Origin: Candidatus Poribacteria bacterium | GTDB lineage: Bacteria > Poribacteria > WGA-4E > WGA-3G | Direction: 5' to 3' | Assembly: GCA_009839745.1 (NCBI GenBank) | Contig: VXPE01000036.1 | Location: 68,763 to 132,762 of the forward strand | Length of the DNA stretch: 64,000 bases | In this document: positions 47,021-60,325 of the stretch, piece after piece | How positions within the stretch are numbered: position 1 is the first letter of the stretch | Layout: each line of letters starts with the position of its first letter | The notes under the pieces: model-generated | Told to the model about the DNA's origin: nothing | What the model saw: the letters and a program-made list of their open reading frames with translations, nothing else | Database searches by the model: none | Program-made: the position numbers and the translations under genes

Positions 47021-48550
47021 TTAAAATTCAAGTAGAAGCTGCGGCACAATTGTCGCACTGCGTCCGGGTTTTCCGATGTTGTTCATTTGGTAAACAATCC
47101 GTGCCAATGCACCTTCTGTAAAATGCCACGTCAAAGCTCCACCGAGTGTTGTCCAAGTTTGGGCATCATCCGTCCGGTTGAAATTGAATGTTCTATACTT
47201 CTCGATGTCTGGGTTCCATACATCATATTTTAACCGAACATCCACGGTTTCTGTCAAGGGAATTTCTGCGTGTAGATAATAACCCTCCACCGCCCTCGTG
47301 CGATTGCTTGACGTTATCGGTGTTTCAGCGTATTTCGAGAGATGCATGTCTATTCCGCGTACCCATTCAGCAGCGAGATCAAATCGCCAAATCTTGAAAC
47401 TCGTTACGAGCCCAACTCTGCGTTTGTAGAATAAGGTGGACGGATCCACATCACCGTTATTCGGATTGAAAGGATAACTATTGCCATCGAAATAGGAGCC
47501 CCCAAGCCAGATCCTCTTACCTAAGAGCGACAGCGTTCCATTGACATGTAGAAATATAGGTGGACTGTTGTTTTGGATGGGTTTCAAAACACCGCCACCA
47601 CTGCCGTGTGGACCAATTCGGATACCAGACGTTACAGTACCATCCGTAACGGTACGGAGCGAATCCGGTCCATCTGCGAGTGATAACACGTAAGCAACGG
47701 GTCCAACATATCCATTCAACTGTAGCCCGCGATCAGAAATGAAACCGATATTTTTTCGGACTAAATTATACAACGGATTTGCGGCAGCATCCGACTTTGT
47801 ATCAATGCCGAAAGTGTGTCGAAAGCGTCCCACTTTCAAAGACGCACCCTTCGGTAAAACTGGAAGCCCTGTGAGAATGGCGTAGACAAACCCATGGTCA
47901 TCTGCGACCTGTGTGCCAAGAGGAGAGGTTGTCAGGAGTTGCTCCCCTAAGATCCCCACATGGTCGCCTATATTTGTTGTCAGGACGAACTCTGCGACGT
48001 GGATGAGTGTCGTACCCGTCCCCCAATTGTTTCTATCAGGCAGTAAATCGCTTCCGGGAGTGATTCGCCGAATATCCAATGCGCCACCAAAGACGAGATT
48101 CCCGAACGCGTCGTTAAAAAATCCAGAAGTATCTGTTTCTTGGGTTTCATCTGTCTCGTCAAAACTAAATATATTTTCATCATCTTCCATGAGTGCATCA
48201 TCTGTTTCGGCGTTTTCTTTTAGAGGCTCGACATTTTCAGGTGTACTCGCTGGGTCACCAGGATAGGACCGGGCAATGATCTCAGCGATGTTACTAAATC
48301 CATCTTTATCGGAATCTTCCTGCGCGATTCTGATGAACGTTGACGGATTCATCCCATTATGTAAAAACGCTCTGCCGTAAGGATTCGGCGCATCGCCGCC
48401 TTTCCTTGACGCATGGCAGACATTACATCCACTCGCCCATCTATATTCGCCACGGAACATCTTGTAAAAGGCAGGTAGTGCAAACGCGGAATTCTCAGCG
48501 ATCAAGGCACAAAAAAGGACTGTTAAGCAGAAAAGTAAAATTTTACGCAT
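47021..48550 (-). CDS. Outer-membrane porin with N-terminal c-type haem domain
   Basis: After a signal peptide (cut near residue 24, A-F-A) comes one haem-binding motif, C-N-V-C-H, in the context G-R-A-F-L-H-N-G (likely distal part), then an EF-hand/thrombospondin-3-like calcium loop D-S-D-K-D-G-F-S-N-I, an acidic linker, and about 360 residues of amphipathic beta strands ending in L-L-L-E-F, the aromatic last residue expected of an outer-membrane barrel. A haem domain fused to a barrel would place a redox centre at the outer membrane. It is followed by the VWA gene and preceded by an FMN-binding protein gene, which supports an electron-transfer role. The partner and the acceptor are unknown. 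Confidence 0.82.
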   Translation of the reverse strand: MRKILLFCLTVLFCALIAENSAFALPAFYKMFRGEYRWASGCNVCHASRKGGDAPNPYGRAFLHNGMNPSTFIRIAQEDSDKDGFSNIAEIIARSYPGDPASTPENVEPLKENAETDDALMEDDENIFSFDETDETQETDTSGFFNDAFGNLVFGGALDIRRITPGSDLLPDRNNWGTGTTLIHVAEFVLTTNIGDHVGILGEQLLTTSPLGTQVADDHGFVYAILTGLPVLPKGASLKVGRFRHTFGIDTKSDAAANPLYNLVRKNIGFISDRGLQLNGYVGPVAYVLSLADGPDSLRTVTDGTVTSGIRIGPHGSGGGVLKPIQNNSPPIFLHVNGTLSLLGKRIWLGGSYFDGNSYPFNPNNGDVDPSTLFYKRRVGLVTSFKIWRFDLAAEWVRGIDMHLSKYAETPITSSNRTRAVEGYYLHAEIPLTETVDVRLKYDVWNPDIEKYRTFNFNRTDDAQTWTTLGGALTWHFTEGALARIVYQMNNIGKPGRSATIVPQLLLEF

Positions 48551-49870: not shown

Positions 49871-50911
49871 TTACTTTTCAACTTCGACCATGAAACTGGA
49901 CCATAGAATTTGATCGGCATGCTTCAACTGTCCGAAGATCTGATAAATTCCAACTTCAGGGAACGTTGTCATTAGCATCACAGTGGGACCAAATTTCTCC
50001 GGTGTGATGCCATCATGTTGATGATGCCCAGTCATAGCGGACTTTTTCATTTCGTGTCCGGCGTGTGGATCTTTCATCATTTTGCGGGTATCCTCAGTCC
50101 CAGGAACTGTTCCGTGCGTATGCACAACACCATCTAAGCGCGTGCTAACAATAGCGAAATGCATGGGTGCGTCCAGAAATGGAACGAGGTCGGTAAGTGG
50201 TTCTCCATCGCGCGAAAAATGGTAAGTAATGTGTACCATCTCGCCGGCTTTAATCCGTTCGGGTGCCTCTATTTTTGCGTAATATGTAGATGAACCCTTT
50301 TTATCCATCAGAGAAACGGCTTTCGTATACCGATCGCCGCCTTCGTCAGCATAACCGAAAACGACTTTTTCACGGCGGAAATCCTCTGTCATGTTAGCCA
50401 ATTTCTCCTCGCCTACGACATCTACATATACGTATTTCGCGAATTCGGCCCCCATTGTCATCACATCAACAGCGAGAATGTATCTTCCTGCCGCAGGAAA
50501 TGTGAAGTGAACCGTATACCGTCCCTTTAATTCAGCCATGATGTCGCGAGATTCAAAATCTTCAGGGTGAATATGCCCAATACTCTGTAGATTCTCGCTG
50601 ACGACGAGCACATGCAGCACACGAGCGTGATGCACCAAAAGATCGCTAACGGGTTCATCTTTCGCATCGGTGAGATGGAAGGTCAGCACTGCAGACCTTT
50701 CCGCTTGAACGGTTTGCGGTTCCGTATGAAGTGCGACATTGAGAGATGCGGTGTTATGCATTTCATGAGCGTCGTGCGTCTGATGTTCTTGTGTATAACC
50801 TACCTGAACAAAAAACAGCATACCGACCCCTATCGCCATTGTGCAATACAGATAGGCACCCTTCGTCATAGGACGAAAAATCGAAGAAAACGTAAAATTC
50901 TGGGATTGCAT
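49871..50911 (-). CDS. Exported His-rich protein with two metal-binding-type beta domains
   Basis: After a signal segment (about residues 18-40) the mature N-terminus is His-rich (H-Q-T-H-D-A-H-E-M-H). Two related beta-sandwich units follow: the first with V-L-H-V-L-V-V-S-E-N-L-Q-S-I-G-H-I-H-P-E, the second with P-M-H-F-A-I-V-S-T-R-L-D-G-V-V-H-T-H-G. Between and after them are more His/Met segments (H-A-G-H-E-M-K, H-H-Q-H-D-G). From memory, this H-x-H-P-E type domain is common next to copper-resistance genes, so copper or another soft metal is the probable ligand. ACGGAGGAAC precedes the ATG; the upstream barrel gene ends 18 bases earlier. Confidence 0.78.
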   Translation of the reverse strand: MQSQNFTFSSIFRPMTKGAYLYCTMAIGVGMLFFVQVGYTQEHQTHDAHEMHNTASLNVALHTEPQTVQAERSAVLTFHLTDAKDEPVSDLLVHHARVLHVLVVSENLQSIGHIHPEDFESRDIMAELKGRYTVHFTFPAAGRYILAVDVMTMGAEFAKYVYVDVVGEEKLANMTEDFRREKVVFGYADEGGDRYTKAVSLMDKKGSSTYYAKIEAPERIKAGEMVHITYHFSRDGEPLTDLVPFLDAPMHFAIVSTRLDGVVHTHGTVPGTEDTRKMMKDPHAGHEMKKSAMTGHHQHDGITPEKFGPTVMLMTTFPEVGIYQIFGQLKHADQILWSSFMVEVEK

Positions 50912-50929: not shown

Positions 50930-51979
50930 TTAAAATGAATAGGTCGTGGCTAAAGAGACCAAATTTCCAAATTCAATTGCGTCGCCGCCATCGTAAAGCG
51001 TTTCTTGCGTCAGTGGAAACATGAAATTCGCAGACACGGAGATGCCGTTTAGCGTTACCACGGACATCCCCAGCGCTGCCATGGTATAATGCAGTCCGGT
51101 GTTGATGTCACGCTCCCCAGCCCACGCGGCAGAGGATTGATAAAATCCGAGATAGTTCGCGTTAAATGAAAACCAATCGGAAAGGCGATACATAAAGCCA
51201 GCTGTGTAAGTTAACTCTACTGAACCTCGATACGTCTTGCTGTTCTCATAGAACGGAAACGTTCCGCGTGTAGAAGCCATAATCGTCAGACCTCGGTAGA
51301 GCGGTAAACTGTATTGCAAGTTGGCAATTGGGTTGAAGGTACCGGTCCCGAACTGGATATGGAGATGTTCAATGCCCGCATCTCCGAGTTTCCAAGGATC
51401 TTCCTCGGTTTTGCCAACCGGAAGTGTGCTGCCCAACCGCGCAAACAGTAGGTCATCCGTTCTAAAGAGTCCGCGGATTTTATAACCCAAAAACAGATCT
51501 GAATCCGTAAGTCCGGCGTAGGTTTCATCTCTATGATGGATATCCCGACTCCGCAAGATCGCTTCCCTATCTTCAGGACTTACTGGATCAATCCACTCAA
51601 TACTTGCGTCCTGGTTCTTGACTGCATACGGAATGTTTGCTTGTAGCGTCCACTGATCGTTCAGCAAGTACTGGACTCCAACATCCATTCGGTAAGTGCT
51701 CAACCCTACATGGTGTCTATGTAAAGGGGTATCAACTACTTTTCCTGTTGGTGAAAGTCCCCTTGATTCAAGATGTCCACCCTGTGCGTCAGGGGACACT
51801 AACATATTGATATTTACTCGAAACTGATCTATCTCTTGTGAAGCCAAACTGACTTCATTCATCAGACCGCTGGGCGGTAAGACGGGATTACTTCAAGCGG
51901 GACAACTTTCTTGTGCGAACCCGAAAGAGATAAATACCGAAGTGAACAACAGCGTGCATAAAAACAGACGGATTTTCAT
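50930..51979 (-). CDS. Outer-membrane barrel protein with in-frame UGA (candidate selenoprotein)
   Basis: Read from the ATG at 51979, the frame encodes a signal peptide (M-K-I-R-L-F-L-C... cleaved after F-G-F-A at residue 22), then Q-E-S-C-P-A, a TGA at codon 29 (51895-51893), and S-N-P-V-L-P-P-S-G-L, running without a frame change into a 310-residue beta barrel that ends in T-T-Y-S-F. The ATG at 51862 after the TGA has no Shine-Dalgarno and would give an outer-membrane protein without a signal peptide. So the TGA is either decoded (C-x-x-Sec), a nonsense mutation or a sequence error. A 25-base hairpin starts 8 bases after the TGA. The barrel resembles MetA-like transporter barrels. It shares an operon with the His-rich gene. 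Confidence 0.75.
51860..51884 (-). promoter_or_regulatory. Hairpin directly after the in-frame UGA (possible SECIS)
   Basis: On the minus strand CGTC-TT-ACCGC (51884-51874) pairs with GCGGT-CT-GATG (51870-51860): nine base pairs, including one G-U, around a 2x2 internal loop and a CCA apical loop. It starts 8 bases after the TGA, within the distance known for bacterial SECIS elements. The apical loop lacks the G expected from the E. coli model, which weakens the case. Confidence 0.4.
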
Positions 51980-52161
51980 AATTTTAATTTTCTCTCTATG
52001 AAAAATAGTGTAACGCGGCGAGACATGAAACCTCGCGCCACAGGTTTATTAACAAGTTCTTCTGGCAAACCTTTATAAAAAGGAAGCCCAAGAAAACGCT
52101 ATGAAAAAAGTAATGGGATTAAGGAATAGAGGCGTGCTTAAGCGTCTTTTGTGGAACTCAC

Positions 52162-52602
52162 TTAGCACTGGGTAAACGGAGGACCCCTATGGGATAGAGG
52201 GTGGTCAGGGAAAAACGTGGAGGTTAAAGGCACGGGGGAATTTTTGAATGATTCCCACGGTGTAACAGGTAAAGTTACTGAGATAGGAAGAATTGAGACG
52301 AGAGACTGCTCAAGCGACTCACGGGATTCATGCGGGTTGTATCTATCGTCTGGAAAAACAAGTTCTAAATCTTTTGAGCAGCACGGATCACCGCTCTCTG
52401 ATGGAGCATCGGCATCACCCGCTGTGTCTGTTTTGGTGATTTGGCAGCAGGTTGATTGAGTATTGGTATCTCCACTCAGGACTTCCGGAAGCACGGTGTG
52501 ACAGGATTTTTGCTCTAAAGTCGCACATAGAAACGGACACACCGAATAGATATACAAGAGTCCTACGAGTAGAATGAGAGTGTGCCGATGTTTTGCTAAC
52601 AC
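52162..52602 (-). CDS. Secreted Cys-rich protein
   Basis: The 146-residue product begins at a GTG (52602) with GGAG 11 bases ahead. A signal-type hydrophobic segment (about residues 8-21) is followed by C-P-F-L-C, S-C-H, T-C-C and D-P-C-C-S, i.e. eight cysteines in the first 75 residues, then a polar tail with S-H-R-G-P-P-F at the end. The paired cysteines suggest metal binding or disulfides in the periplasm. It is the first gene of the minus-strand redox/metal locus and has its own promoter (52663-52692). The family is not recognised. Confidence 0.7.
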   Translation of the reverse strand: MLAKHRHTLILLVGLLYIYSVCPFLCATLEQKSCHTVLPEVLSGDTNTQSTCCQITKTDTAGDADAPSESGDPCCSKDLELVFPDDRYNPHESRESLEQSLVSILPISVTLPVTPWESFKNSPVPLTSTFFPDHPLSHRGPPFTQC

Positions 52603-58477: not shown

Positions 58478-58753
58478 ATGACCGGAGAGGCATTGGGTTT
58501 AGTTGAAACGAGAGGCTTAGTTGGGAGCATTGAAGCTGCCGATGCTATGGTGAAAGCGGCAAATGTTCATCTTATTGGTTATCAGCAAATTGGTGCTGGC
58601 TACGTGACTGTCATGGTTCGTGGTGATGTTGGTGCTGTGAAAGCTGCAACGGATGTTGGGGCCGAGGCTGCGGCGCGCGTCGGTGAAGTAGTTTCAGTTC
58701 ATGTGATTCCACGACCGCACGCTGAAGTCGAAACTATGTTGCCAAAATCTTAA
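58478..58753 (+). CDS. Bacterial microcompartment shell protein, hexameric BMC-H
   Basis: Ninety-one residues, one BMC domain (Pfam 00936 type), like PduA/EutM/CcmK. The family pattern is clear: [12 protein letters not shown][12 protein letters not shown], the pore segment [19 protein letters not shown] and the end V-H-V-I-P-R-P-H. Such hexamers tile the facets of the shell and let substrates pass through the central pore. AGGAGG lies 14 bases before the ATG, which is longer than usual. PduL and a flavoprotein follow on the same strand. No pentamer (BMC-P) gene is in the window. Confidence 0.96.
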
Positions 58754-58832
58754 ATTTGGGAGTTCGCGGATTCATTGGACGTGCCTTGTTCTATGGCGTT
58801 CAGTATATCCTAACCAAGAAGGCAGAACATAG

Positions 58833-59546
58833 ATGCCAGACCGTGCCCTTGTTGAGTTGATTACCCAGCGTGTTGTTAATAGACTCACGACAGACCAAGC
58901 CTGTAGCGGTTGCGCTTTGCGGACCTGCGATGCAGGCAACCGTGCTTGTGATGTCGTCGCACAACAGCAGCAAATTCCGGTTGGCGTTTCAGCACGACAT
59001 GCCCATGTAACGCAGGAGCATCTTGAGATTCTATACGGTGCTGGACACCAACTGACTGTCTACGCTCCCCTCTATCAACCCGAAGCTTTCGCCGCCAATG
59101 AGACGCTAACGATCGTTGGGAAACGGATGCGTGCTATTGAAGCGGTTCGGATTCTTGGTCCCGTGCGAGATTACTCCCAAGTTGAAGTTGCTCAAACGGA
59201 AGCAATCCGGCTCGGATTAAATCCGCCTATTCGAGACTCAGGGGACCTTGCCGGTGCCGATCCGATTACCCTCATTGGTCCCGCAGGAAGCATTTATTTG
59301 GAGGAAGGGGCAATTTGTGCGACGCGGCACATCCATATGACCCCCGGAGATGCGAACGCACTCGGGATTCACGAGAACGACCTTTTAAAAGTGCATTTCC
59401 GTGGCGAGCGTGCGCTAACCTTTGAAAACGTCCGTCCCAAAATTCATGAAGATTATGTACTTCAGATGCACTTAGATACCGACGATGCCAATGCAGCAGG
59501 TTTAAAAGGCGGTGAACCCGTTGAAATCGTGCGCGATGTCGGTTGA
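58833..59546 (+). CDS. pduL: PduL-type phosphate propanoyltransferase with Cys-rich N-terminus
   Basis: PduL makes acyl phosphate from acyl-CoA inside microcompartments and so recycles CoA. The 237-residue product has both duplicated zinc-binding motifs, S-A-R-H-A-H-V and T-R-H-I-H-M, and the family segment G-P-V-R-D-Y-S-Q-V-E-V. Residues 1-18 form an amphipathic helix like an encapsulation peptide. Unusually, C24-x2-C27-x4-C32-x6-C39 follow directly, which could bind a metal or Fe-S cluster. It lies 79 bases after the shell gene and 32 before the flavoprotein gene. Confidence 0.93.
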   Translation: MPDRALVELITQRVVNRLTTDQACSGCALRTCDAGNRACDVVAQQQQIPVGVSARHAHVTQEHLEILYGAGHQLTVYAPLYQPEAFAANETLTIVGKRMRAIEAVRILGPVRDYSQVEVAQTEAIRLGLNPPIRDSGDLAGADPITLIGPAGSIYLEEGAICATRHIHMTPGDANALGIHENDLLKVHFRGERALTFENVRPKIHEDYVLQMHLDTDDANAAGLKGGEPVEIVRDVG

Positions 59547-59578
59547 GGCGTATAGAATTCCCAATATTTTGAGGCAGT

Positions 59579-60325
59579 ATGAATCAGGAGCTGATTGACC
59601 AGATTCGGAGAATTGTGGAGAGGGTCCTGCAAGAGCAAACATCAGGCTCTACGCAAACCACACACGAAAAACGACTGCTCGCTATTTTTAGCGCAACACA
59701 GCTTGCGTTGGATGAACCCATCCAGCAACTTCAGACGTGCCAACAACATGGATGGGAAATTACAATAATTCTGTCCGATCTTGCAACCAAAGTTGCAAAC
59801 CTCGAACCGATTTATGCCGCATTTGGTGAAGATAACGTTTTGCAAGAGAATGCTCTCAGCGATATAATAACTTTTGCGGAAACGTATCCACAAATTGTGC
59901 TCCCTGTCTTCTCATATCCGATGGCTGCGAAACTTGCGTTAAGGTTAGTGGACACGCCGTGTACCTATCTGGTGTTTGAAGCCCTCTCTAAGGGGAAAAA
60001 GGTTATCGCAGCCGCTGACGCACTTCATCAGAATGAAGTTTCCGTAAAAATAGGTACTATTTTCAGTAGACTTGAAGACGATTATGTAAACGCTTTGTCC
60101 GAATTAGGCGTTCAATTGGTACCAACGACCCAAATCGCCGAGTCGGTCGTAGAGAGCGTGAGTGGTTCGCGTGTTGCTGTGGAAAAAACTTTAATTAGCG
60201 CAACGACTATTTTAAATCTGGATGCGAATGTGCGAGAATTAGTTTATTCAAACCCAGCGATTATCACACCACTTGCCCGTGAGCAGGCGAAAAAAAGAGG
60301 TATTGAACTGATACCTAAAAATTGA
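59579..60325 (+). CDS. BMC-associated flavoprotein with encapsulation-type N-terminus
   Basis: The 248-residue protein starts with an amphipathic helix (residues 3-19, E-L-I-D-Q-I-R-R-I-V-E-R-V-L-Q) and a Ser/Thr linker, the usual signal for loading into a microcompartment. The rest resembles the flavoprotein (PF02441-like) family often found in BMC loci: L-L-A-I-F-S-A-T-Q near residue 32, V-L-P-V-F-S-Y-P-M-A-A-K-L-A in the middle and I-I-T-P-L-A-R-E-Q-A-K-K near the end. The reaction is not established in such loci. It is the last gene of the cluster. Confidence 0.8.
   Translation: MNQELIDQIRRIVERVLQEQTSGSTQTTHEKRLLAIFSATQLALDEPIQQLQTCQQHGWEITIILSDLATKVANLEPIYAAFGEDNVLQENALSDIITFAETYPQIVLPVFSYPMAAKLALRLVDTPCTYLVFEALSKGKKVIAAADALHQNEVSVKIGTIFSRLEDDYVNALSELGVQLVPTTQIAESVVESVSGSRVAVEKTLISATTILNLDANVRELVYSNPAIITPLAREQAKKRGIELIPKN

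Follow-up and report, generated by a model that had tools for sequence, protein, structure and literature searches.

The window analysed here is a 64,000-nucleotide stretch of contig VXPE01000036.1, from a Candidatus Poribacteria metagenome-assembled genome with an assembly of 5.04 Mb. Its minus strand carries, between positions 50930 and 51979, a gene for a predicted outer-membrane barrel protein whose reading frame is crossed by a UGA codon. This codon very probably specifies selenocysteine (Sec, U). We refer to the gene and its orthologues as family A, and the features of the gene are as follows.

50930 to 51979, minus strand: predicted family-A selenoprotein gene, comprising a signal peptide, a C-P-A-U motif and a 12-strand outer-membrane barrel; 349 residues with the UGA read through
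51914 to 51979, minus strand: N-terminal hydrophobic segment, a putative signal peptide according to the alignment and a modelled helix at residues 2-17
51902 to 51904, minus strand: Cys codon 26 (TGT), predicted partner of Sec; UGA in the paralogous family, and Cys again, independently, in one distant copy
51893 to 51895, minus strand: in-frame UGA, codon 29, second position of C-x-x-U, very probably read as Sec; kept in orthologues, with UGA also in double-UGA paralogues

An in-frame UGA in an outer-membrane barrel gene

The ATG at 51979 opens MKIRLFLCTLLFTSVFISFGFAQESCPA, which includes the hydrophobic N-terminal segment, followed by Q-E-S-C-P-A; the signal peptide is probably cleaved after A22. 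Past the TGA at codon 29 comes SNPVLPPSGLMNEVSLASQEIDQF, with S-N-P-V-L-P-P directly behind the TGA, and the frame stays open into the barrel region, down to position 50930. A sequence-only reading of this DNA had proposed that the frame passes the TGA into a complete barrel, and the 349-residue product confirms this. The list of open reading frames made for the window with translation table 11 contained only the 310-aa remainder from ATG 51862; gene callers using this table would truncate such genes in the same way, with loss of both signal peptide and motif.

In family A, the ratio of nonsynonymous to synonymous substitution rates (dN/dS) was 0.0 over the six codons that precede the UGA and 0.116 over the twelve that follow, with 0.114 in the remainder of the gene. 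The corresponding values in a paralogous family, family B, were 0.022, 0.122 and 0.092. Judged by these ratios, purifying selection is strong on either side of the UGA in both families. A sequencing error at the TGA is untenable, because the identical codon is present in many independently assembled genomes.

Conservation of the UGA and a paralogous family with two UGA codons

Orthologues were sought in 85 genomes of the phylum. Exactly one in-frame TGA was found in all 36 genus orthologues covering codon 29 (a 37th, which starts at a contig end past this codon, was left out), and all 31 distinct family-A sequences have TGA at codon 29. This conservation, together with the low dN/dS around the UGA, indicates that the codon is not there by chance.

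Family B is also present in the source genome (G000:C20:45479-46516) and is 55% identical to family A. Its motif is Q-E-S-U-G-A-U-S-N-P, with TGA at both motif positions, 9 nt apart (U-x-x-U). By our count, 77 of the 79 near-full-length family-B copies, from four families of the order, contain exactly two in-frame TGAs; one of the other two has three, and the second (in genome G026) carries Cys at the first motif position and so only one TGA. TGA positions were checked in 32 distinct family-B sequences and in eight more distant copies. In the sequences read, alignment columns 26 and 29 held Cys or Sec only: codon 29 was UGA in every copy, one of the two states (Cys or TGA) that the sequence-only reading had named as support there, and Cys alternated with UGA at position 26 alone. 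On a tree from which the motif had been excluded, at least two changes between Cys and Sec were counted at position 26.

Several individual copies deserve mention. In the G026 genome a C-x-x-U copy (L123, C-S-A-U) occurs together with a two-TGA copy (G026:C18:34251-35255), a natural pair for comparing Cys with Sec. In the family-B copy L076 a third in-frame TGA occurs at residue 61, where relatives have Trp (MMRW), possibly reflecting a base error or an early lesion, and the family-B copy at G054:C5:4403-5479 also has a third in-frame TGA. Broken or fragmented family-B copies were seen at L132 (G019:C20), L131 (G047:C1:1198170-1198792) and L133 (G028:C2:632593-633145); L131 and L132 retain both TGAs as well as the hairpin 2 described below.

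If the UGA were a true stop, it would end a conserved 28-aa leader peptide, and the barrel would arise by re-initiation at ATG 51862, which lies 30 nt after the UGA, or else the gene would be decaying; the hairpins downstream of the UGA could then serve as attenuator or translational-coupling structures. However, the residues between the UGA and ATG 51862 are under purifying selection (dN/dS 0.12). Family B has no Met there (GGIGEVSL), SNPxIP is equally conserved in it, and it carries two UGAs 9 nt apart. Moreover, re-initiation would yield an outer-membrane barrel devoid of an export signal. A pseudogene or decaying gene was rejected on the basis of a whole-gene dN/dS of about 0.1. We therefore regard a true stop as very improbable.

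Selenocysteine machinery of the source genome

The four genes for which the sequence-only reading had suggested a search are all present in the source genome: selA (600 bits), selB (346 bits), selD (360 bits) and, directly behind selB, the tRNA-Sec gene selC, which was detected by ARAGORN and by the Rfam model (78 bits). The selD gene has a UGA in its K-C-A-G-U-A-S-K loop, and fdhA (751 bits) has one in its U-H-A-P motif, showing that UGA occupies the Sec site of two classical selenoproteins in this genome. Within the phylum, tRNA-Sec was found in 73 of the 85 genomes.

Some uncultured bacterial lineages are known to have reassigned stop codons, a precedent for supposing that UGA here encodes another amino acid or is read through without selenium. 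By contrast, UGA is the ordinary terminator of the barrel gene in 10 of 63 homologues, which marks out the internal UGA as special. In addition, the internal TGAs stand opposite Cys or other TGAs in the alignment, and a complete Sec pathway is present, with UGA at known Sec positions in selD and fdhA. Reassignment or selenium-free readthrough is in our view exceedingly improbable.

A constrained hairpin downstream of the UGA

Two hairpins follow the UGA codon.

51860 to 51884, minus strand: hairpin 1, its stem divided into 4+5 bp by an internal loop; begins 8 nt past the UGA and includes ATG 51862, the closest alternative ATG
51840 to 51856, minus strand: hairpin 2, the best candidate for a selenocysteine insertion sequence (SECIS), GAAGUCA-GUU-UGGCUUC; 7 bp, or 8 if the flanking U-A is counted; distance from the UGA to the apical loop 43 nt

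The sequence-only reading had described a 9-bp hairpin 8 bases after the TGA and advised a search for a SECIS downstream. Its hairpin exists, in the interrupted form of hairpin 1, but the best SECIS candidate is hairpin 2; that reading had missed both this much more conserved hairpin and the double-UGA paralogue. The search does find a SECIS-like hairpin, under strong constraint at the RNA level. Hairpin 2, GAAGUCA-GUU-UG(G/A)CUUC, occurs in families A and B and in the distant copies, of which only L125 is doubtful. In both families the eight-codon window with the lowest synonymous variation, out of about 342 compared, fell on hairpin 2, at the same codons. The synonymous rate (dS) there was 0.00 against 0.82 in the rest of the gene in family A, and 0.07 against 1.93 in family B.

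Pairing within hairpin 2 was examined in an alignment from which L125 was left out: 98.7% of 224 cells pair, three pairs show changes on both sides, and slid registers reach at most 56% pairing. The covariation score was reached by 0 of 500 shuffles, which ignore relatedness among the sequences. In three distant copies EVGSTS replaces EVSLTS in the protein, and the stem is kept through a paired change from A-U to G-C. The 63 loops comprised GUU (56), GGU (4), GUC (2) and GUG (1), on a stem of 7 bp; the search demanded G followed by U or G, so that the G follows from the search itself, whereas the uniform register and stem do not.

The published bacterial SECIS (bSECIS) model requires 16-37 nt between the UGA and the apical loop, a loop G followed by G or U, and an energy of -7.5 kcal/mol or lower. 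Hairpin 2 agrees with the model in stem and loop. Its mean folding energy alone was -7.3 in family A, -7.5 in family B and -8.0 in the distant copies, and about -19 together with hairpin 1 in the window. The distance from UGA to loop was 43 or 40 nt in family A (mostly 43), 40 or 46 nt in family B, 40 nt in seven distant copies and 34 nt in the most distant copy.

It may be asked whether Sec is inserted through hairpin 1 instead, hairpin 2 having another role such as SelB-independent pausing. Hairpin 1, 8 nt after the UGA, has the canonical spacing, and both hairpins are more stable than protein-preserving shuffles, hairpin 1 clearly so in family A (z -2.9, and -1.6 in family B). Yet the two families do not share the sequence or the register of hairpin 1, and in the window its apical loop reads CCA, missing the G demanded in the first two positions, whereas hairpin 2 combines an invariant G loop with near-zero synonymous change and compensatory changes. 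We consider hairpin 1 unlikely to be the SECIS, and hairpin 2 probably the main one.

Predicted barrel fold and invariant histidines

Two structure models, with a mean predicted local distance difference test score (pLDDT) of 72 and 77, both had about 12 strands arranged as a barrel. Among solved structures, FapF and the COG4313 channel 4rl8 matched best, with E values down to 4e-13 and template-modelling (TM) scores of 0.5-0.7. All aligned members share seven histidines (69, 87, 89, 148, 149, 205 and 207) without exception. The product consists entirely of signal peptide, short segment and barrel, and a thioredoxin-like or other enzyme domain was not found in it.

Five distant barrels of the phylum (L126, L127, L128, L129 and L137) share about 23-35% identity with the new family over part of the barrel. 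They lack the motif and are therefore uninformative on the Sec site. They form a separate His-rich outer-membrane barrel family with a conserved N-terminus, RPDSHAPI-VMG-H, and the member that was scanned had no Pfam match.

Gene neighbourhood

The barrel gene is flanked by two genes on the same strand.

52162 to 52602, minus strand: Cys-rich, probably exported protein of 146 aa; upstream neighbour of family A, likewise in 9 of 9 other genus loci examined
49871 to 50911, minus strand: YtkA-like protein, directly downstream of the barrel gene; beside family A in only 2 of the 9 other loci examined

The Cys-rich protein, for which no Pfam or NCBIfam match was found, is a probable functional partner of family A. 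On the other side, YtkA-like, FMN_bind-like and CxxCH-bearing genes follow family A in only two of the nine further loci, one of the nine ending just after the barrel gene. A fully conserved downstream operon of YtkA type was rejected, as only two other family-A loci examined have it. The sequence-only reading had spoken of a metal/redox locus. The Cys-rich, YtkA-like, FMN_bind-like and CxxCH neighbours lend this weak support; of these, only the Cys-rich gene is constant. Family B usually stands after an aldo/keto reductase gene and often before genes for an OppA/NikA-type binding protein and a permease. The neighbours point to a possible role in the transport of a metal, a peptide or a metal complex.

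Other genes of the window lie further off. An oxidoreductase with a molybdopterin-binding domain (PF00174; 54077-55396, plus strand) is divergent from the barrel locus and occurs near family A in several relatives. At 47021-48550 (minus strand) a protein of 509 residues combines a probable signal peptide and a likely barrel with a heme-binding motif, CNVCH, in its N-terminal part; it has partial matches only, to the diheme GEGP family NF041762 and to Temptin_C. Bacterial-microcompartment genes occupy 58478-60325 (plus strand), encoding a shell protein that resembles EutM, a phosphate propanoyltransferase of PduL type and a third, eut-type product whose match is weak.

Proposed mechanism

The conservation of the UGA, the presence of selA, selB, selC and selD and the constrained SECIS-like hairpin support the earlier proposal that this UGA is read as Sec, and the gene very probably encodes a selenoprotein. 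In the checks made, none of the refuting outcomes named with that proposal was seen. We propose that codon 29, after the signal peptide, would be decoded by SelA, SelB, tRNA-Sec and SelD of the source genome. SelB would most likely be recruited by hairpin 2, and hairpin 1, once folded, would draw hairpin 2 nearer to the UGA and shorten the intervening 43-nt gap. The product would be a 12-strand channel in the outer membrane, structurally of COG4313/FapF type, that carries C-x-x-U, or U-x-x-U in the paralogue, in its N-terminal segment. In the COG4313 crystal structure N-terminal residues fold into the lumen (PMC4493636); by analogy alone, the motif segment may sit at the periplasmic mouth or in the barrel lumen. 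There the Cys/Sec pair could form a reversible redox or soft-metal site that, with the seven invariant histidines, controls or feeds passage through the channel. We give this functional part of the explanation, a redox or metal site associated with the channel, about an even chance. A more specific version is tentative: the selenol-thiol or diselenide pair might act as a redox- or metal-operated gate and, with an extracellular His cluster, move a soft metal or metal-ligand complex, Sec insertion depending on a tandem-hairpin SECIS with the SelB hairpin about 43 nt from the UGA.

Several observations do not sit well with this explanation. The homologues within the phylum, a tblastn search of plasmids and a profile scan of viral contigs yielded no copy in which both positions are Cys. 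Of the 67 barrel-bearing genomes, 8 gave no tRNA-Sec, and 5 of these 8 have selA; incomplete assemblies explain most, not demonstrably all, of these eight. Nor is the co-occurrence strict in the other direction, as tRNA-Sec is also present in genomes devoid of the barrel, indicating that the barrel is not the sole Sec client. In nearly all copies the distance of 40-46 nt to the loop of hairpin 2 misses the 16-37 nt rule, for which reason we call this hairpin SECIS-like, and in the source genome fdhA and selD have their candidate loops, read by eye, about 16-18 nt from the UGA. In the models, the segment before strand 1 that bears C/U-x-x-U has a pLDDT mostly below 50. Finally, the likely position of the invariant histidines on the extracellular side (upper halves of strands 1-2, loops 2 and 3) was deduced from the strand order of the model and not from its coordinates.

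The motif could instead be an oxidoreductase site of thiol-disulfide type that serves electron transfer in the periplasm or the removal of peroxide, the barrel being a mere membrane anchor. A redox role is assumed for most known Sec motifs of the C-x-x-U or U-x-x-U shape (PMC13188914). FMN_bind-like and CxxCH neighbours accompany family A in the window, and an aldo/keto reductase lies beside family B. Against this, the product contains no recognisable enzyme domain, and the FMN_bind and CxxCH neighbours are not constant beside family A. Because genes for an OppA/NikA-type binding protein and a permease often accompany family B, transport fits better than an anchored oxidoreductase, which we hold to be possible but rather doubtful.

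Comparison with known systems

Pfam, NCBIfam and PDB sequence searches of the family gave no match above cut-off. PF13557, which covers such channels, reached a best E value of 0.0012 in 7 of 24 members and did not match the window protein, and the family was not assigned to it. A 2026 catalogue lists 119 prokaryotic selenoprotein families, including two predicted outer-membrane barrels, of MtrB type and TonB-receptor type (PMC13188914). The barrel family is absent from it and neither catalogued barrel matches: NF041027 and NF049945 gave no match in the 24 family members at E up to 0.1. A search of the open-licence literature found no paper joining Poribacteria with the word 'selenoprotein', although a description elsewhere is possible. 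SelA and SelB are reported to be enriched in sponge-symbiont genomes of several phyla, with no client named (PMC5649159); the barrel family would be a concrete, conserved Sec client in the sponge-associated Poribacteria.

The GSU2204/MtrB-PioB-type protein (NF041027; PMC13188914, Table 1) is likewise an outer-membrane barrel predicted to contain Sec, but it belongs to another protein family and has one Sec, with no Sec motif given in the review. The TonB-dependent receptor of FCYXU type (NF049945; PMC13188914, from the deep-Sep study PMC12013277) shares with the new family an outer-membrane barrel with C-x-x-U, but is a different, larger barrel, reported in Desulfosarcina. Two Sec residues three positions apart, as in family B, are known from the UxxU selenoproteins (the metal-binding MerA-related NF041115, Prx-like and FmdB-like; PMC13188914), which are other protein families, whereas the new family has no NCBIfam match.

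Hairpin 2 resembles the bSECIS of E. coli fdhF and fdnG type in its stem of 7-8 bp and small apical loop starting G-U or G-G. It differs in lying, in nearly all sequences, at 40-46 nt instead of 16-37 nt, with another hairpin in between. A distant, strongly constrained loop in such a tandem arrangement makes the spacing rules of the SECIS directly testable. As for the protein, the best structural matches of the new barrel are the COG4313 channels (Pput2725, SphA and TcpY) and FapF. Identity to them is only 10-14%, and the new family adds the C/U-x-x-U motif and the seven invariant histidines; it thereby brings to the outer membrane a well-supported selenoprotein family, with one or two predicted Sec residues, in a fold devoid of a redox domain.
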